Program-made: the position numbers and the translations under genes
IMG/VR virus record: IMGVR_UViG_3300046533_001145
Span: 1-41,543 of that record
Length of the DNA: 41,543 nt
Reading direction: 5' to 3' (one strand)
DNA from: a virus
Part shown: positions 3,003 to 34,882 of the stretch, piece after piece
Layout of the letters: the number at the start of each line of letters is the position of its first letter
How positions within the stretch are numbered: position 1 is the first letter of the stretch
Notes under the pieces: generated by a model
What the model saw: the letters and a program-made list of their open reading frames with translations, nothing else
The model's database searches: none
What the model was told of the DNA's origin: nothing

Positions 3003-3620
3003 GTGGTGGCGACCACGAAGAGGAAGACGAAGACGCCCGCGCCGAGGAAGACCAAAGCGAAGGCGAAACCGAAAGCGAAGGGCAAGGCGCCGGCGAAAGC
3101 GAAACGGCGCCGCCGCAAACCGGCCGCTCCGAAACCGACGGGGCGCCCCTCGAAAATCGCGCAGCACGTCGAGGTGCTCGTCAAGCTCAAGGGGAAAGAG
3201 GAGAAGCGCATCCTCACCGTGGCCGAGGCCATCGTCCTCGCCCTGGCGCACGGGCTCACCATCGAAAAAGCTGCCGAGACCGTCGGCGTCAGCGCCACCA
3301 CGGTGCATAACTGGCTCGCCCGGGGAGAGGAGTGGAGGGACGCCGATGTCGTCCCCGCCGGCGAGGAGCCCTTCCTTGAGTTTCTGTATGCGACGACGCG
3401 GGCGCGCGCGCAGGCGGTCGAGCTCGCCCTCGCCGGCATCATCGAGGCGGGCAAAGAGGACTGGCGCGCATGGGCGTGGTTCCTCGAGCGCAGCTTCCCC
3501 GACGAGTACGGGCGCCGGACCCGACTCGACCACGGCGGCATCGCCGACGGCGAGACCATGACCCTCGCCGAGCTCTTCGCCCGGTCGGCGAAAGACAAGT
3601 CGACCGCCGATGGCGACTAA
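3003..3620 (+). CDS. Terminase small subunit
   Basis: 205 residues. A very basic Lys/Ala/Pro N-terminus (1-55) precedes a helix-turn-helix, LTIEKAAETVGVSATTVHNW (about 83-102), and a helical region with WAWFLERSFPDEYGRRTR, a signature of phage small terminases (DNA recognition at the packaging site). It overlaps the large subunit by 11 bases. The start is a GTG with no clear Shine-Dalgarno, and a second GTG follows at once, so the exact start is uncertain. The long basic tail could add nonspecific DNA binding. It is the first gene of the rightward block. Confidence 0.88.
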   Translation: MVATTKRKTKTPAPRKTKAKAKPKAKGKAPAKAKRRRRKPAAPKPTGRPSKIAQHVEVLVKLKGKEEKRILTVAEAIVLALAHGLTIEKAAETVGVSATTVHNWLARGEEWRDADVVPAGEEPFLEFLYATTRARAQAVELALAGIIEAGKEDWRAWAWFLERSFPDEYGRRTRLDHGGIADGETMTLAELFARSAKDKSTADGD

Positions 3621-14163: not shown

Positions 14164-14340
14164 ATGTCCGCTCTGCTGGTCGCTTTCGGAACCATCCTGG
14201 TCGTCGTCGGCGCTGCCGCGCTGAGCGAGGAGCGGGAACGGCCGCGACGCGGCGGCGGGACTCGGCTCGAGTTCGTGGTGCTCTGTGCGGTCCTGATCGG
14301 TGGAGGGGTGGCGATGGCCTATGCCGGTGTCGCTGCATGA
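14164..14340 (+). CDS. Small two-helix membrane protein
   Basis: 58 residues, read directly. ATG at 14164 follows CACCACGAAGAAGGGAACACCCG. Two hydrophobic segments (SALLVAFGTILVVVGAAAL and FVVLCAVLIGGGVAMAYAGV) flank a basic turn (ERERPRRGGG), giving a hairpin membrane topology. Size and topology would suit a holin or superinfection-exclusion protein, but it is far from the lysis cassette. Confidence 0.65.
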   Translation: MSALLVAFGTILVVVGAAALSEERERPRRGGGTRLEFVVLCAVLIGGGVAMAYAGVAA

Positions 14341-14775: not shown

Positions 14776-15420
14776 GTGATCGTCACCGCCCATCAGCCGG
14801 GCTACTTACCAGGAGTAAGTGTGGTCTCCAAGATCGCCCGGGCCGACGCCGTCGTGTGGCTTGACGATGTCCGCTTCACGACCCCGGGCTTCGTCAATCG
14901 CAACCAGCTTCCCGACGGGACGTGGCTCACCGTCCCGGTCGAGCGCCGCGACCACCTGACGCCGATCCGGGAAGTGCTGATCGCCGAGGACGGATGGGCG
15001 CCGGCGCACACGAAGATCATCGGCGAGCACTACCGCGACGCCCCGCACTTCGACGCTTCGATCTTCCTGCCGCTCGGCGGCCCGCTCTCCTACGAGGGCT
15101 CGCCGCTGCTCGAGCTCAACCTCGCCTTGACGGAGAGGCTCTTCGCTGGCCTCGGCCTCTCGCCCCGGCAGTACCGGCAGTCCGAACACCGCTCGCCGTC
15201 GGGCTCGCTCTCGACCAAGCTCATCCACCTGGTCAAGTCCGTCGGCGGCTCGGCCTACCTCTCGGGCCCGACCGACGCGCTCGACCCCGAGGTCTTCGCC
15301 GAGGCCGACCTCGAGCTCCTCTACTTCCGCTACGCCGGCGACAACCCGAGCGTGATCGACCCGCTCTTCCGCGCCGGGACTCTGCCATCGGAACCGAAGC
15401 AGGAGGTCAACGTCGCATGA
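14776..15420 (+). CDS. WbqC-like family protein
   Basis: 214 residues, GTG start. Near the N-terminus AHQPGYLPGVSVVSKIARAD and VVWLDDVRFTTPGFVNRNQL are the WbqC signatures (HQP..P....KI..aD..v.LDdvqf....fvNRn). Later SLSTKLIHLVKSVGGSAYLS and GP..AL, then FAEADLELLYFRY, complete the family's C-terminal pattern. WbqC-like proteins occur in O-antigen, glycan and other modification clusters; their reaction is not settled. The gene overlaps the portal by four bases (ATGA), so it is translated with the head genes. A role in modifying virion protein, DNA or host glycan is conjecture. Confidence 0.85.
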   Translation: MIVTAHQPGYLPGVSVVSKIARADAVVWLDDVRFTTPGFVNRNQLPDGTWLTVPVERRDHLTPIREVLIAEDGWAPAHTKIIGEHYRDAPHFDASIFLPLGGPLSYEGSPLLELNLALTERLFAGLGLSPRQYRQSEHRSPSGSLSTKLIHLVKSVGGSAYLSGPTDALDPEVFAEADLELLYFRYAGDNPSVIDPLFRAGTLPSEPKQEVNVA

Positions 15421-17531
15421 AGTCGGTCCTCTACGAGGCGTTGAAGGCCGGACCGCGCGGCGCGTCGGCCGACCGGGAATGGGGAATGACCGGCGTCTAC
15501 GGCGAGCGCTACGAGCCCGAATCGCGGCTCGAGTTCGTGGACGCCTACTTCAACCGCGTGTGGGTGCATCGCTGCATCGACCTGATTTCGAGCTCGGCCA
15601 CGCAGGTGCCGATGCAGGTGAAAGTCGGCGGCGAGTGGGTCGAAGAGCACCCGCTGCTCGACCTGCTGCGGCGCCCCTCGCCCCGCGACCCCGCCCTGAT
15701 GTTCTTCGAGTGGTCGATCAAGTGGGCCGAGGTGATCGGCGAATGGTATTGGGAGATCGTCCCCTCTCGAGGCGGCGACATCGCGCAGCTCTTCCCGCTG
15801 CGCGGGCAGCACATGCGGATCATCCCCGGCGAGGAGGGCGCCATCGCCGGCTACAGCTATGACCCGAACGTCAACGGTGTCGACACGGTCGAGTTCGATG
15901 CGCTCGACCCCTTCAAGCCGAAGGTCAAAGGCAGCGGCGAGAAGACCATCGTCGTCGCCGGCCGCTACGCGAATCCCAAGGACGACCTCTACGGGATGTC
16001 GCCCCTGCGGGCCGCCAAAGACGACATCATCAGCGAGTACTACGGGGTCCGATACGACCACCGCTTCTTCCGCAACTCGGCCCGTCCCGACCTCGTGATC
16101 GGCTTCAAGGGCAAGCTCGACGCCGAGGAGCGCCGCCTCAACAAGGAGGAGTGGCAGGAGTTCAAAGGCATGGACAACGCGCACCGCGCGGCGGTGATGT
16201 CCGGCGAGCCCGACATCACCCTGCTGACTCAGAACTCGAAGGATGTCGAGTACCTCGATGGCCGCCGCCTCGCCCGCGAGGGGCAATGCGCCGCCTTCGG
16301 TGTGCCGCCGGTCCTGGTCGGCGATATGACCCGCGCCACCTACTCGAACTTCGAGAATGCCGAGCCGATCTTCTGGAAAATCACGATGCTGCCGAAGCTC
16401 GGCTTCTTCGCCACGTGGACGAACTTCACCCTCGTGCCCTTCTATCCCGATGTCGAGGAGTTCCGCTTCGACACGAGCCGCGTCCCCGCCCTCGCCCGCG
16501 CCGAAGGATGGCGCTCGGACCGGGCCCGGGGCGAGATAGCCGGCGGGATCAAAACGCCGAACGAGGCGCGCGAAGAGCTCGGCGAGGAGCGCATCGAGGA
16601 TGAGGAGGGCGCCGATCTTCTGTGGCTGCCGACCAAAGTCCGGCCGATCAGCGACCTCGAGCAGGCGGCGCCCGAACCGCAGCTCAACCCGATACCGGCC
16701 GGCGTCCCGGCCGGCGAAGAGAAAGGCGTCCGCCCCGGCCACCGGCTCGAATCGTGGGCGCTCAGCGCCGAGAAGGGGACCGTCGCCAATTGGCTGCGGC
16801 AGGGTCTCGAGGCGAAGCTCCGCTTCTCCGAGCGCGGCAAGAACGAGATAGCCGGTCACTTCGCCGAGCAGCGCGACGCCGTCCTCGCCATCGTGGAGGG
16901 GCAGGAAAAGAGCGCCGAGCTCGAGCGCCTGCTGCGCGAGTACGGATGGGCCGACGACGCCGCCAACTTCCATCAGATCGTGGAGGCGATGCAGGCCGGG
17001 CTCGCCCTCGCCTCCTTCAAGATCACCGCCGGCGCCGTCGACCAGGAGGCGAGCGAGTCGCTCATCAGCCGGATGCTCGCGCAGCTCGCCAACCGCCCCG
17101 AGGGAATCCAGTCGGTCTCGGGCCGGGTCAAGGAGGAGGTGCTCGAGGAGGTCCGCGAAGGGATCGCCCACGGCCTCACCTATCGGCAGATCGCCGAGGG
17201 CGGCACCTTCACCTCGGCCACGGCCGGCGCCGAGGACGTGACGATCAAGGGCATCCAAGGCGTCTACGAGGAGTACACCGGCTGGCAGGCCGAGCGGATC
17301 GCCCGCACCGAGGCCGCCGTCACCTTCAACCTTTCGAGCGCCGGCCTGATGCGCGAGGCCGGCGTCGGTTACGTCGACATCTCAGACGGCGACGAAGACG
17401 AGGAGTGCGCGCTCGCCAACGGCTCGCGCTGGTCCCTCGAGGAATACGAAGCCAACCCGATCAGCCATCCGAATTGCACGCGGATCGGGCTTCCCGTAAT
17501 CGAAGTGCCTACATCAGGAGGATCAGCATGA
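15417..17531 (+). CDS. Portal protein fused to MuF-like minor head domain
   Basis: 704 residues. Residues about 1-400 are an HK97/SPP1-like portal: AYFNRVWVHRCIDLISSSAT, then DDLYGMSPLRAAKDDI, FRNSARPDLVIGFKGK and FGVPPVLVGDMTRATYSNFE. A Pro-rich hinge near 430 leads to a helical C-terminal region with YEEYTGWQAERIARTEAAVT, then FNLSSAGLMREAG and ISHPNCTRIGLPV. These are hallmarks of the phage Mu gpF-like (MuF) minor head domain. Portals form the dodecameric DNA gate, and MuF proteins are normally a separate neighbouring gene. Here they are one polypeptide with no stop between. Confidence 0.92.
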   Translation: MKSVLYEALKAGPRGASADREWGMTGVYGERYEPESRLEFVDAYFNRVWVHRCIDLISSSATQVPMQVKVGGEWVEEHPLLDLLRRPSPRDPALMFFEWSIKWAEVIGEWYWEIVPSRGGDIAQLFPLRGQHMRIIPGEEGAIAGYSYDPNVNGVDTVEFDALDPFKPKVKGSGEKTIVVAGRYANPKDDLYGMSPLRAAKDDIISEYYGVRYDHRFFRNSARPDLVIGFKGKLDAEERRLNKEEWQEFKGMDNAHRAAVMSGEPDITLLTQNSKDVEYLDGRRLAREGQCAAFGVPPVLVGDMTRATYSNFENAEPIFWKITMLPKLGFFATWTNFTLVPFYPDVEEFRFDTSRVPALARAEGWRSDRARGEIAGGIKTPNEAREELGEERIEDEEGADLLWLPTKVRPISDLEQAAPEPQLNPIPAGVPAGEEKGVRPGHRLESWALSAEKGTVANWLRQGLEAKLRFSERGKNEIAGHFAEQRDAVLAIVEGQEKSAELERLLREYGWADDAANFHQIVEAMQAGLALASFKITAGAVDQEASESLISRMLAQLANRPEGIQSVSGRVKEEVLEEVREGIAHGLTYRQIAEGGTFTSATAGAEDVTIKGIQGVYEEYTGWQAERIARTEAAVTFNLSSAGLMREAGVGYVDISDGDEDEECALANGSRWSLEEYEANPISHPNCTRIGLPVIEVPTSGGSA

Positions 17532-18403
17532 ACGCACCATCCGGCTTCGGCCGCACGAGTCCCGCCCAGGTCGCCGAGGAGTCCGGCATCTACGTGCCCG
17601 ACCTTCCCGGCCTCGCACCCGAAAAGGTCGCGCTCGCCGCCGGCGTCGCGCAGCTCGCCCGCTTCATCCCGAAGATCGGGCTCCGCATCCTCGGCCTCGG
17701 CTTCGACATCTCAGATGGCGGGACCGGCACCAACGAGGTGCAGAAAGTCCAGGTCAAAGCGAAAGCGGGGACCTACAAACTCACCTTCGCTGGCAAACAG
17801 ACGGCGGCCATCGCCTTCGACGCCCTGGCGGCGGCGGTGCAGTCGGCGCTCGTCGCGCTGCCCAACATCGGCGCCGGCGACGTGGAAGTGACCGGCGGGC
17901 CCGGCGACGAAAACGGGACCGCGCCCTACGTCGTGACCTTCAAAGGCGCGCTCGGGCATCAGGACGTGCCGGCCATGACGGCGGACGCGACCGGGCTCAC
18001 CGAAGGCACGAAAACGGTGACGATCACGACGCAGGCCGCCGGCGAGTCCCTGCGCTGCGATGTCGGCATCTACGGCGCCGACCTCAACCTGATCGGCGCC
18101 AACGGCGGCACCGAGGTGGCCGACGACGCCGGCGCGAAGGCGCTGGACTTCGCCGAGCCCGTCCGGGTGCAGCCGGGCCACGCCTACTACGCCGCCTTCG
18201 GCACGCAGGGGGGCGCCGCGAAAGCGCTCTGCATGGTCAGCGCCGACGCCGCCGGCGCCGACCTGGTCGGGAAAACCGCCGGACTGCGCGAGCTCGTCAC
18301 GCTCGCGGCCGGGGGCTACCCGCTGCCGGACGTGATCCCCGTCGGGGAAGCGGCCGGAACGAAGGCACCGCTCATGGCGCTGCGGACGGCCGCCGCGTCG
18401 TAA
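17528..18403 (+). CDS. Structural protein with beta-sandwich repeat domain (putative head decoration)
   Basis: 291 residues. Residues about 69-170 (NEVQKVQVKAKAGTYKLTFA then LPNIGAGDVEVTGGPG, YVVTFKGALGHQDVPAMT) match a beta-rich module often seen in phage structural and bacterial surface proteins. The flanks are Ala/Gly-rich: the N-terminus names nothing, and the C-terminal part has repeated beta strands (GHAYYAAFGTQGGAAKALCM). Position between portal and protease suggests a virion component such as a decoration or head-fibre protein. Overlaps the portal stop (ATGA). Followed by a hairpin. Confidence 0.65.
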   Translation: MNAPSGFGRTSPAQVAEESGIYVPDLPGLAPEKVALAAGVAQLARFIPKIGLRILGLGFDISDGGTGTNEVQKVQVKAKAGTYKLTFAGKQTAAIAFDALAAAVQSALVALPNIGAGDVEVTGGPGDENGTAPYVVTFKGALGHQDVPAMTADATGLTEGTKTVTITTQAAGESLRCDVGIYGADLNLIGANGGTEVADDAGAKALDFAEPVRVQPGHAYYAAFGTQGGAAKALCMVSADAAGADLVGKTAGLRELVTLAAGGYPLPDVIPVGEAAGTKAPLMALRTAAAS

Positions 18404-18467: not shown

Positions 18468-19226
18468 ATGAAGACCGAGGAGAAGGAGAGGCAGCAGAAG
18501 GGCCGCAAATCGGTCTTCCCGATGCAGCGGCTAAAGCTCGAGGAGCCGCAGGCGGATGGTCGCCGGCGCATCGAGGGCTACGCCGCCGTGTTCGGCAACC
18601 GCGACGCTTACGGCGACATCATCATGCCGGGCGCCTTCGAGCGCAGCCTGCGCGAGAAACCCGACGTGAAGGTGCTCTGGCAGCACGACACCCGCACGCC
18701 CATCGGCAAACAGGAGTCGGGCTACGAGGACGACTTCGGGCTCGCCGTCACCGGCGTGCTGACGAACACCGACAAGGTCACCGGCGAGATTGTGCCGCTG
18801 CTGCTCGATGAAGTCGTGACCGGCCTCTCCATCGGTTACGACGTGGTGGTCGAGGAATACAACGCCGAGCTCGAGGCGTGGTTCCTCAAGGACATCGAGC
18901 TCTGGGAGTGGTCGCCCGTGACCTTCCCGGCGAACGAGCTCGCGACGGTGTCGGAGGTCAAGCACCTCGGCACCCGCGAGGACGCCCACGCGACCCGCGT
19001 TTCCCGCCACGCGAAGAGCATGATCCACGAGCTCGAGGGCTATTTTCAGAAGTCCGACCGACGGGACGCGCTAGATTCAGACCAGCTCGCCACTCTGCAC
19101 ACCCTGCTCGGAGGCCAACTCCCCGGTGCGCAGGCGGTGTCCGCCAAGGGCATCGAGTTGGCCTACATGCGGGGCGTGGACGACACACTCGACACGCTCG
19201 GCTTGAAACCGAAAGAGAAGGAGTGA
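18468..19226 (+). CDS. HK97-family prohead maturation protease
   Basis: 252 residues behind GAAGGAGG. IEGYAAVFGNRDAYGDIIMP and GAFERSL (about 35-61) open the fold. VLWQHDTRTPIG gives catalytic His73, GLSIGY gives Ser121, and ELWEWSPVTFPAN supplies the acid (probably Glu147). These are the U35 serine-protease features that cleave capsid scaffold. The C-terminal tail (KSMIHELEGYFQKSDRRDAL) is helical. It precedes the capsid gene by two bases. Confidence 0.92.
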   Translation: MKTEEKERQQKGRKSVFPMQRLKLEEPQADGRRRIEGYAAVFGNRDAYGDIIMPGAFERSLREKPDVKVLWQHDTRTPIGKQESGYEDDFGLAVTGVLTNTDKVTGEIVPLLLDEVVTGLSIGYDVVVEEYNAELEAWFLKDIELWEWSPVTFPANELATVSEVKHLGTREDAHATRVSRHAKSMIHELEGYFQKSDRRDALDSDQLATLHTLLGGQLPGAQAVSAKGIELAYMRGVDDTLDTLGLKPKEKE

Positions 19227-19228
19227 CG

Positions 19229-20881
19229 ATGTTCTCGACTGCGCTGTCCATCTTCGGGGCCGCCCTCGCGGTGTTCGCCCTACTCGCTGTATGGCTTGCC
19301 CTCGAAACGCCGCGCCGGCTTCTCGCGCGCCCCGCAGGGGGCAGCGTCCTGGCGAAGCGCATCGCGGGTCTCGCCGGACCGGCCTCCTACTTCGCCGCCT
19401 ACTTCGACGGCGTCCGCAAGGCGTTCAAGTACCCGCGCCTGGCGCTGACCGTCACGCTACGACCGGCCGAGGCAATTCGATTCGGGCTGATGCCGGCGAT
19501 GTGCGGTGGCTCTCCCGAGCTGGACGAGGATGTCGAGCTCACGGACGGCGAGAAGGTCGAGCAGAAGAAGATCGAAGAGCAGGTCGCCGATTTGCGTTCG
19601 AAGCTGATGGGGCGCATCGGTGAGATGGAGGTCAAGGGCGAGGACAAGGCCGAGCTCGAGAAGCGCGAGGCCGAGCTCGCGAAGCAGGTCGACAAGCTGA
19701 TCGGCTTCGCCAAGAAACAGGAGTCCGACGAGGTCAAGGACTTCAAGGCCGAGCTCGAGGAGCGCGTCGACGCCTTCGAGAAGACGATCAAGGAGTACTT
19801 CGCCGAGGCCGAGGACGGTCCCCGGGGCGCCTTGAAGAAGGGGAAGCAGCTCGAGCGGTACAAGGGCGACAACCTCTTCCTCGATATGCGCGAGGCGATC
19901 AAGACCCACGATCAGGCGCTTTCCAGTCAGCTCCACGAGTACGAGCAGAAGTTCAACTCGGCCGAGCGGCAGAAGGCGTGGGCCACCGAAGACCTCGAGG
20001 ATGTCGACCTCATCATCCCCGACATCCAGCAGGCGCTTCCGTTCCTGCGCGCCCGGGCCCGGGTCGTCCAGCTCTTCCGCGAGCTGCGCACGTCCTCGCC
20101 GGCCGTCGAGTTCCCGGTCTTCAAAACGGGGCTCACCGTCGGACACGTCAAAGAGGGGGAAGGGAAGCCCGAAAGCGACCCGACCTTCGACCTCGAGGTC
20201 GCCCGGGTCTTCACCATCGCCGGGATCAGCGACGTGCCGAACCCGACGCTCGAAGACTTCCCGGCCGCGCGCGGCTGGATTTCGACCGAGCTCGGCGCGG
20301 CGACCGGCGCCCAGGAGGAGACCGACGTGCTGATGGGTGGCGGCGTAGGCGAGCCGCTCGGCATCCTCGAAAACGAAGACGTGCCCGTCCGACAGGTCGA
20401 TGAAGTGGCGAAAGCGAGCAACGGCCGCAACTTCATGACCTCCATCTTCCGGGCCGCGCAGCAGGTCCGCGTCGAAGGCTTCGTGGAGCCGACCGACGCC
20501 GCGCTCAACCCGGCGGTGTGGACGGACATCGCGCTCTCGTTCGAGGACGCCATCGGCTTCCTCTACGGGCCGCCGCAGGCGAGCACCTCGGGGGCGCCGG
20601 CGGACACGCCGCCTCCTCGGGTGCTCGGGCTCCCGATCACCTGGTCGTCCTACATCCCGCTCGATGCGGGTGAAGGCGAAGACGAGTCGCCGATCATCGT
20701 CGGCAACTTTCAGGACGGCATCGTCCTGCGTCGGTCGCCCTTCCGCATCGACATCGACACGAGCGTCGGGTTCAAGAAAAACCTGACCTCCTTCCGAGGG
20801 GAGGAGCGGATGGGCTTCATCGTCGTGCGGCCCATGAGCTTCGTCGTGGTCGAGGGTGTCAAACCGACGCCGGTCGTCTAA
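19229..20881 (+). CDS. HK97-fold major capsid protein with atypical hydrophobic N-terminus
   Basis: 550 residues, ATG after AAGGAG. Residues about 250-550 show the HK97 capsid pattern: FPVFKTGLTVGHVKEGEGKP, then VARVFTIAGISDVPNPTLED, a GVGEPLGIL loop, and IIVGNFQDGIVLRRSPFRID with FRGEERMGFIVVRPMSFVVV at the end. Residues about 95-200 are a long coiled coil (EKVEQKKIEEQVADLRSKLM), the usual scaffold-like delta domain that the protease removes. Oddly, residues 2-26 form a transmembrane-type helix (FSTALSIFGAALAVFALLAV) and another ~60 residues precede the delta domain. An internal ATG at 19499 would start a more conventional capsid. Confidence 0.88.
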   Translation: MFSTALSIFGAALAVFALLAVWLALETPRRLLARPAGGSVLAKRIAGLAGPASYFAAYFDGVRKAFKYPRLALTVTLRPAEAIRFGLMPAMCGGSPELDEDVELTDGEKVEQKKIEEQVADLRSKLMGRIGEMEVKGEDKAELEKREAELAKQVDKLIGFAKKQESDEVKDFKAELEERVDAFEKTIKEYFAEAEDGPRGALKKGKQLERYKGDNLFLDMREAIKTHDQALSSQLHEYEQKFNSAERQKAWATEDLEDVDLIIPDIQQALPFLRARARVVQLFRELRTSSPAVEFPVFKTGLTVGHVKEGEGKPESDPTFDLEVARVFTIAGISDVPNPTLEDFPAARGWISTELGAATGAQEETDVLMGGGVGEPLGILENEDVPVRQVDEVAKASNGRNFMTSIFRAAQQVRVEGFVEPTDAALNPAVWTDIALSFEDAIGFLYGPPQASTSGAPADTPPPRVLGLPITWSSYIPLDAGEGEDESPIIVGNFQDGIVLRRSPFRIDIDTSVGFKKNLTSFRGEERMGFIVVRPMSFVVVEGVKPTPVV

Positions 20882-33881: not shown

Positions 33882-34166
33882 GTGCCGGGGGAAACAATCG
33901 ACTGGCGCGTGAGTCAGGCCGAGCGCGACATCGAGACTCTCTACACCCGCACCGGGCCCGTCGGCGAGCATGAGCGCCGCCTCGAAACCGTCGAGGAATC
34001 CCAGAAGACCGCGATCCAGCAGCGCAGCGAGGACCGGACGGAATTCCTCTCGGAGATAAAAGAGCTGCGGCGGACCATCATTCAGGCCACGCTTGCAATC
34101 CTGGTCGCGATGATCGCGGCCATCGTGACGTTCTCCCAGATCGCCGGCAGCGGAGCGCACCCGTGA
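33882..34166 (+). CDS. XhlA-like membrane protein (putative holin/lysis)
   Basis: 94 residues, GTG start one base after the tail protein stop. Residues about 15-62 are a coiled coil (RDIETLYTRTGPVGEHERRL; SEDRTEFLSEIKELRRTIIQ) and 66-88 a membrane helix (ATLAILVAMIAAIVTF). Coiled coil followed by a C-terminal transmembrane helix is the haemolysin XhlA-like design. First of the lysis genes; overlaps the next gene by GTGA. Confidence 0.7.
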   Translation: MPGETIDWRVSQAERDIETLYTRTGPVGEHERRLETVEESQKTAIQQRSEDRTEFLSEIKELRRTIIQATLAILVAMIAAIVTFSQIAGSGAHP

Positions 34167-34882
34167 CCTCGGAGAAGACGAAGCACGCGACCTTCATCGT
34201 CCGCGTCGTCGTCCTCGGGATCATCGGCCTGATCGGGCTGCTGACCTTCACCGCGATCACCGCCGTGAAGAGCATCCAGACCCGCGAAGACGTGAAGGAA
34301 TCGCAGCGCTTCGATCCCTGCGTGTCGCTCTCGGAGGCGGTCGCCCACACGGCCGCGCCGTCGCACATCGCCGAGCTGACCATCGACTGCAAGCTCTTCC
34401 TCAACGGCCTCGCCCCGCTCGTGACGAGGAAGCTCGCCTGCGCCTTCATCCACAAGGGCGGCTACGTGTGCCCGGCGCCCGAGCGCAAGCGCACCGCAGG
34501 AGGGCAGAGCGGCGGGCAGGAGCGCGCCGGGCCCGTCCTCGGCCCGAGCCTACCCTCGGCCCTCGCCGGCCCTACAGCGGCGCCAGAAGCCGCAGGCGGC
34601 GGCGGTAGCGGCGGCGGCGCAGGCCACGGCGGCGGCCATCAGCCGAGCTCACCGCCCTCGAGCGGTGGCGGTGGCGGCCACCACCATGCGCCGCACCACC
34701 ACCATCCCTCGCCGGCGCCCGCTCCGACGCCGGCGCCAACCCCGGCACCCGAACCGGCACCGGCGCCCGCGCCGGGCCCGGGCAACTCTGAGAACACGCC
34801 GGCGCCGGTGCATCCCTCGGTCGAAGTCTGCGTGCGTAACCCGCTGATCCCGGCCTGCGTGTCGGCCGACGCCGGGCTCTAG
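34163..34882 (+). CDS. Membrane-anchored Pro/His-rich lysis-region protein
   Basis: 239 residues, GTG start. A membrane helix at about 11-34 (FIVRVVVLGIIGLIGLLTFT) is followed by a ~65-residue helical domain with four cysteines. A long Gly/Ser linker, HHHAPHHHH and PAPAPTPAPTPAPEPAPAPA stretch, and a final CVRNPLIPAC follow. The Pro-rich stalk would span a cell envelope, as in membrane-anchored lysis or spanin-like factors, but no lysis family is recognised. It resembles the small Pro/His-rich protein at 744-1079 in composition. Confidence 0.65.
   Translation: MTSEKTKHATFIVRVVVLGIIGLIGLLTFTAITAVKSIQTREDVKESQRFDPCVSLSEAVAHTAAPSHIAELTIDCKLFLNGLAPLVTRKLACAFIHKGGYVCPAPERKRTAGGQSGGQERAGPVLGPSLPSALAGPTAAPEAAGGGGSGGGAGHGGGHQPSSPPSSGGGGGHHHAPHHHHPSPAPAPTPAPTPAPEPAPAPAPGPGNSENTPAPVHPSVEVCVRNPLIPACVSADAGL

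Follow-up and report, generated by a model that had tools for sequence, protein, structure and literature searches.

A conserved membrane-type helix at the N-terminus of an HK97-type major capsid protein precursor

The major capsid protein (MCP) encoded in the window, i.e. the whole analysed stretch of 41,543 nucleotides (IMG/VR virus record IMGVR_UViG_3300046533_001145, positions 1 to 41,543), begins with a hydrophobic helix of membrane type that is almost certainly genuine, conserved and part of the MCP precursor. Its conservation suggests a transient attachment of the head precursor, to the membrane or to another partner, during assembly. The kind of protein is itself known, namely an HK97-type MCP with a fused scaffold; the conserved N-terminal membrane-type helix is the new part, and the accessible portions of the open-access literature searched did not mention an HK97-type MCP with an N-terminus of transmembrane type. 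Papers that proved uninformative on this point are PMC3483164, PMC9628853, PMC5567305, PMC6471424, PMC5889276, PMC7996906, PMC12542753 and PMC11476376. For tailed phages, it has long been asked how the first capsomers find the one portal and what sets the place where assembly starts (PMC10275583; here and below, papers are cited for the accessible portions of their text). A scaffold with a membrane-type anchor, together with a family of close relatives that differ in the helix, would make membrane-linked nucleation directly testable. The MCP gene, its predicted domains and the adjacent head genes are arranged as follows, where KD19 denotes the best 19-residue Kyte-Doolittle mean:

15417..17531 (+): portal protein with a C-terminal head-morphogenesis (MuF-like) part (PF04860, E 3e-52; phrog_2662, phrog_4728)
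18468..19226 (+): prohead serine protease, S78 (PF04586, E 1.9e-29; phrog_80, E 3.9e-46)
19218..19223 (+): Shine-Dalgarno site AAGGAG of the MCP gene, overlapping the 3' end of the protease gene (read from the sequence; comparable sites in relatives)
19229..20881 (+): HK97-type MCP precursor, 550 aa (PF05065, phrog_10, Foldseek)
19232..19306 (+): N-terminal hydrophobic helix, residues 2-26 (KD19 2.43; helix in the AlphaFold2 model)
19277..19300 (+): invariant core ALLAVWLA, residues 17-24 (7 of 7 sequences; E26 is invariant too)
19307..19522 (+): basic, hypervariable linker spanning residues 27-98 (pN/pS 0.87, with 3 of its 72 columns unchanged)
19523..19975 (+): coiled-coil scaffold (delta-like) domain, residues 99-249 (predicted helices; predicted removal after K249)
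19976..20878 (+): predicted mature capsid domain, residues 250-550 (PF05065, AlphaFold2, Foldseek)

The window MCP combines the predicted hallmarks of the HK97 type: an HK97 fold, a fused N-terminal coiled-coil scaffold, and protease and portal genes upstream. Its residues 273-542 match Phage_capsid (PF05065, E 5.1e-32), and the protein matches the major head protein phrog_10 with E 4.1e-43. An earlier AlphaFold2 model from seven sequences was poor (mean pLDDT 36.6); the model used here was built on a 50-row alignment and is usable (mean pLDDT 71.7). Foldseek relates it to HK97 (1ohg, E 3.1e-17, TMt 0.67) and to D3 (9ous, E 2.7e-18), with query-normalised TM-scores that are low (0.35-0.37 for 1ohg/9ous) because the shell domain makes up only about half of the model. 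The predicted domain order is helix (residues 2-26), linker, coiled-coil scaffold and HK97 shell; the linker is modelled with low confidence and contains short helices, and scaffold helices are predicted at residues 106-132, 138-164 and 167-192, with a pLDDT of about 62-81 per block. The initial annotation, made from the sequence alone, had described a strong AAGGAG start, a hydrophobic helix at residues 2-26 and some 90 residues ahead of a delta/scaffold coiled coil, and all three descriptions hold. AAGGAG is read at 19218-19223, and the open reading frame starts 2 bases past the stop of the protease gene (19226); the hydrophobic segment forms a single helix in the model; and the modelled coiled coil starts near residue 99-106.

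K, R, D and E are all absent from residues 1-25, and the KD19 of 2.43 is the maximum for the helix. When residues 2-249 were shuffled, only 2 of 20000 permutations attained this value inside the first 40 residues. Residues 2-90 are already rich in hydrophobic residues; when this segment alone was shuffled, 466 of 20000 permutations attained the value at any position. Stronger evidence for the helix than shuffling comes from the comparative data. The window family has seven distinct members, i.e. the window and six phages from scans of IMG/VR (L001, L002, L004, L005, L006 and L009) whose MCPs are 57-72% identical to the window MCP; a further contig, L010, was not counted, the available part of its MCP being identical to that of L009. 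All seven carry the hydrophobic N-terminal stretch in frame behind a Shine-Dalgarno site, with GTG as the start codon in L001. In each, the hydrophobic span covers about 20 residues (KD19 2.30-2.78), and the stretch free of K, R, D and E comprises 21-25 residues, the length of a membrane span. No member has a K or R ahead of the invariant motif, so that the basic N-region of a Sec signal peptide is absent throughout.

The motif ALLAVWLA and E26 are invariant in all seven, and the codons there vary mainly at synonymous positions. As judged from the substitution pattern, the helix core is more strongly constrained than the linker, the scaffold or the mature capsid: for residues 12-26 pN/pS is 0.23 and 9 of 15 columns are invariant, compared with 0.87 and 3 of 72 for the linker, 0.73 and 26 of 151 for the scaffold, and 0.47 and 141 of 301 for the mature domain. 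The length of the linker varies widely among the seven members. Those with a long linker (L001:3977-4360, L002:3659-4010, L009:1730-2088 (-)) share the linker sequence ASGQGREGI(A/S)KR, which is absent from the window and from the members with a short linker. Beyond this family, a search with the N-terminal 94 residues alone returned no match at E<=10 among 50,697 phage records, scans with single proteins of L005 and L006 recovered only their own contigs as loci, and no proviruses of the window family were found in bacterial genome scans.

These comparisons also bear on whether the extension is an artefact. The initial annotation had offered as an alternative that a small gene was fused to the capsid gene by an indel and that the capsid starts at ATG 19499. 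In favour of an indel fusion or a wrong start codon one can cite that residues 88 and 91 are encoded by ATG and that the Pfam match is confined to residues 273-542. ATG 19499 (residue 91) does exist, without a Shine-Dalgarno-like site, and codon-position GC agrees with the annotated MCP frame. Of the two findings that were named as refuting a genuine extension, homologs that start near residue 91 and an indel separating two frames, neither was seen: the six homologs share the extension, and at the level of the assembled sequence there is no frame break. The same in-frame extension with its own ribosome site in 7 of 7 members, and a helix conserved with a pN/pS of 0.23 through mostly synonymous changes, i.e. 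under purifying selection, make a sequencing-indel fusion or a mis-called start untenable; we regard an artefact as extremely improbable. An internal start that would yield a second, shorter MCP seems unlikely: no internal ATG or GTG ribosome site is common to the window family, which shows only isolated, weak Shine-Dalgarno-like strings at internal codons (codon 110 in L002, 75 in L004 and 52 in L006). The family also warns against cutting back MCP N-termini as mis-called starts.

How common is such a helix among other MCPs? Altogether 261 phage records match the window MCP, and from these 15 were picked for diversity and examined. The helix is missing in 14 of these named phages (maximum KD19 <=1.54) and present in one, Mesorhizobium phage vB_MseS-P1, with a KD19 of 2.74. 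With the vB_MseS-P1 MCP as query, IMG/VR yielded 74 loci with 61 distinct usable MCPs of a second family, whose start codons were assigned by an automatic Shine-Dalgarno score, three being set by hand. By cut-offs of our own choice (KD17 of 2.0 and 0.8), 18 of the 61 have a helix (KD17 >=2.0), 15 an intermediate start (0.8-2.0) and 28 none. As a third family we analyzed actinobacteriophage MCPs retrieved with that of Arthrobacter phage Coral; none of these 53 distinct proteins has the helix, and two have an intermediate start (0.82-0.86). Within the families sampled, the N-terminal membrane-type helix is, by these profiles, a real minority feature of HK97-type MCPs, evidently fixed in the window family, facultative in the vB_MseS-P1 family and absent from the Coral family. 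The premise of the initial annotation that membrane insertion is not normal for capsid proteins is in line with 14 of the 15 named phages and all 53 Coral-type MCPs, which lack the helix; the window protein is not unique, since 18 of 61 MCPs of the second family carry one too.

In the second family, the helix has repeatedly been gained or lost. Mapped on a tree built from the C-terminal 310 residues, the helix label requires 13 changes (bootstrap 12-13), at least 9 of which are forced by well-supported branches, and the label shows no more than weak clustering (31 of 500 shuffles are equally low). Helix-less MCPs mostly begin a few bases past the protease gene, like the helix-bearing ones. The idea that the helix is encoded here as a gene of its own found no sign in a check for separate small membrane ORFs near the MCP, which were present at none of 14 helix-bearing, none of 13 intermediate and 2 of 24 helix-less loci, both of them downstream. 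The flanking charges are arranged in reverse: K or R stands ahead of the helix in 18 of 18 members, and in 17 of 18 there is none in the next 20 residues. To the eye, three MCP N-termini (L084:3812-5137, L099:3908-5272, L062:3950-5365 (+)) resemble classical Sec signal peptides that end in A-x-A. Four others (L103:2049-3377, L104:3878-5200, L105:3902-5221, L106:3887-5203 (+)) share a start of the type MTKHFMP.ASLAAL.AARP, which is conserved and shorter than a membrane span, and may indicate a non-membrane role of MCP N-termini.

The vB_MseS-P1 family is alphaproteobacterial, related to RcGTA, and has one cultured, inducible member. Like the window MCP, its proteins have the membrane-type helix before the scaffold coiled coil, a portal-protease-MCP gene order, and a helix that begins a few bases past the protease gene. 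Unlike in the window family, the flanking charges are reversed, an AHxxG-type turn often lies past the helix, and the helix is facultative (18 of 61); the window MCP is 21-26% identical to members of this family, and the helix sequences are unrelated. For vB_MseS-P1 itself, CsCl-purified virions were analyzed by mass spectrometry, which detected 15 virion proteins including g3-9 (PMC11409702). The position of the MCP corresponds to g5, inside this detected set, and the word transmembrane is absent from the accessible text of that paper (PMC11409702). So far as this source goes, a phage whose annotated MCP bears such a helix does make particles, which counts in favour of the anchor mechanism considered below. 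Agrobacterium phage 7-7-1, whose virions show no more of the MCP than its C-terminal part (PMC3517404), was considered as a proteomic parallel and dropped, its MCP lacking such a helix.

The predicted maturation cleavage bears on the fate of the helix. In the 50-row alignment, at least 90% of the rows keep K249 and A250, and a profile alignment to HK97 gp5 maps the HK97 cut (K103/S104) near residue 250 of the window MCP. Lying upstream of the predicted K249/A250 cut, the helix should therefore belong to the removable scaffold. The neighbouring S78 prohead protease would cut near K249/A250 and remove helix, linker and scaffold together, and the mature shell would then be an ordinary HK97-type capsid. 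HK97 gp5 resembles the window MCP in its fold, its fused coiled-coil scaffold, the protease gene directly upstream and the predicted K/small-residue cut; it lacks an N-terminal hydrophobic helix (maximum KD19 0.87 in the first 150 residues), and the window MCP has about 100 extra residues ahead of the scaffold. The scaffold of HK97 is located beneath the capsomers in prohead I, facing the interior, and its residues 2-66 form trimeric coiled-coil towers that contact the portal (PMC10275583).

The initial annotation had proposed that the extension anchors the prohead to the membrane or the portal. Anchoring is still the best class of explanation, and within it membrane insertion and portal contact are hypothetical. 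The mechanism that we favour, in which the scaffold side carries a transient membrane anchor, is tentative and, taken as a whole, falls somewhat short of probable. In all seven members of the window family, no K, R, D or E precedes the invariant motif, and the next 40 residues have a net charge of +4 to +8. By the positive-inside rule, the basic flank of a membrane span lies on the cytoplasmic side; an uncharged N-tail followed by a stretch of net positive charge therefore predicts an N-out/C-in topology with a cytoplasmic capsid domain. The N-tail would span the cytoplasmic membrane with the basic linker inside, and the flexible linker would tether precursor subunits or capsomers to the cytoplasmic side of that membrane. 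Such anchoring may concentrate subunits where head and portal nucleate and delay free assembly, until the protease frees the shell from its membrane anchors.

What is more challenging is to reconcile a membrane anchor with the geometry of the head. Because the HK97-type scaffold faces the lumen, several hundred anchored subunits would be unable to close a shell, which counts against the anchor; closure could be possible if the helices leave the membrane or if only the first subunits insert. The reversed charges in the second family predict the opposite topology and thereby weaken a common anchoring mechanism, and since sister phages in that family do without the helix, HK97-type assembly in general can proceed without it. 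We consider it rather doubtful that heads are templated on the membrane in a broader sense, i.e. that the precursor MCP is an integral membrane protein through its scaffold, that the protease frees the shell, and that the anchor was repeatedly gained and lost in unrelated HK97-type lineages. Two other known systems offer partial parallels to a membrane anchor on the scaffold. The fold of pVIII of the filamentous phages is unrelated to that of HK97-type MCPs, and pVIII is assembled by extrusion, whereas the window helix would be cut off. The likeness is that of a capsid protein with a transmembrane helix, the pVIII virion being lipid-free (PMC3185693). The heads of T4 are assembled on the inner membrane, which speaks for the anchor, but are attached by the portal side and a connector chaperone and not by the capsid protein (PMC3185693).

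The main rival to the membrane anchor places the helix at the tip of the scaffold towers, where it would pack with its neighbours in the prohead or dock in a groove of the portal, the protease or another core protein before being removed by the protease, with no membrane involved. An added helix would cap HK97-like trimeric towers of the kind that bind the portal (PMC10275583), and the sequence itself, beyond its hydrophobicity, is fixed in 7 of 7 members; the exact invariance of ALLAVWLA goes beyond the demands of lipid anchoring and is suggestive of a protein partner. The reversed charges of the second family and its gradation towards less hydrophobic N-termini (intermediate in 15 of 61) also fit a scaffold tip. 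However, the hypervariable linker suits a flexible tether more than a rigid tower, and 21-25 residues without charge are unusual for a soluble coiled-coil tip; on balance we regard this explanation as somewhat unlikely. A signal-peptide-like aid to targeting or folding, by which the N-terminus recruits SRP or a chaperone co-translationally and slows folding without stable insertion, would accord with the basic start, hydrophobic stretch and A-x-A-like end seen by eye in L084, L099 and L062. In the window family the basic start is missing in 7 of 7 members, and such an aid seems distinctly unlikely. Very unlikely in our view is a role in ejection, for which the cleaved hydrophobic peptide and basic linker would be kept in the head and ejected with the DNA, aiding its passage across the membrane of the next cell. 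The copy number would run to hundreds, and HK97-type phages lose their scaffold by digestion. The basic character of the linker speaks for such a role, as does SPN3US gp47, which has been proposed to be an ejection protein and whose mature part bears a membrane helix at its N-terminus (PMC5694885).

A further gene ahead of the portal gene encodes another membrane-type protein:

14164..14340 (+): 58-aa two-helix membrane protein (KD19 2.42)

It is matched in 5 of the 6 relatives at E<=1, with best values per genome of 2.8e-12 to 2.3e-6; the sixth has, in the stretch examined, an unrelated small hydrophobic two-helix ORF instead. The 58-aa protein could be a partner of the MCP helix, a holin or unrelated to either; a comparable small gene was found near none of the 14 helix-bearing loci of the second family. 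Directly 5' of the portal gene lies a WbqC-like gene (14776-15420 (+); PF08889, E 7.8e-30), an odd site for it within the head and packaging cluster. Between portal and protease, a gene of 291 aa (17528-18403 (+)) has weak matches to tail proteins (phrog_2839, E 4.7e-10); it is missing in L001, where the protease, beginning at 3203, closely follows the end of the portal-frame ORF at 3181. Farther downstream, at 33882-34882 (+), two adjoining small genes have one hydrophobic stretch each (KD19 2.49 and 2.59) and are possibly lysis genes, the second with a C-terminal half rich in Pro, Ala and His.
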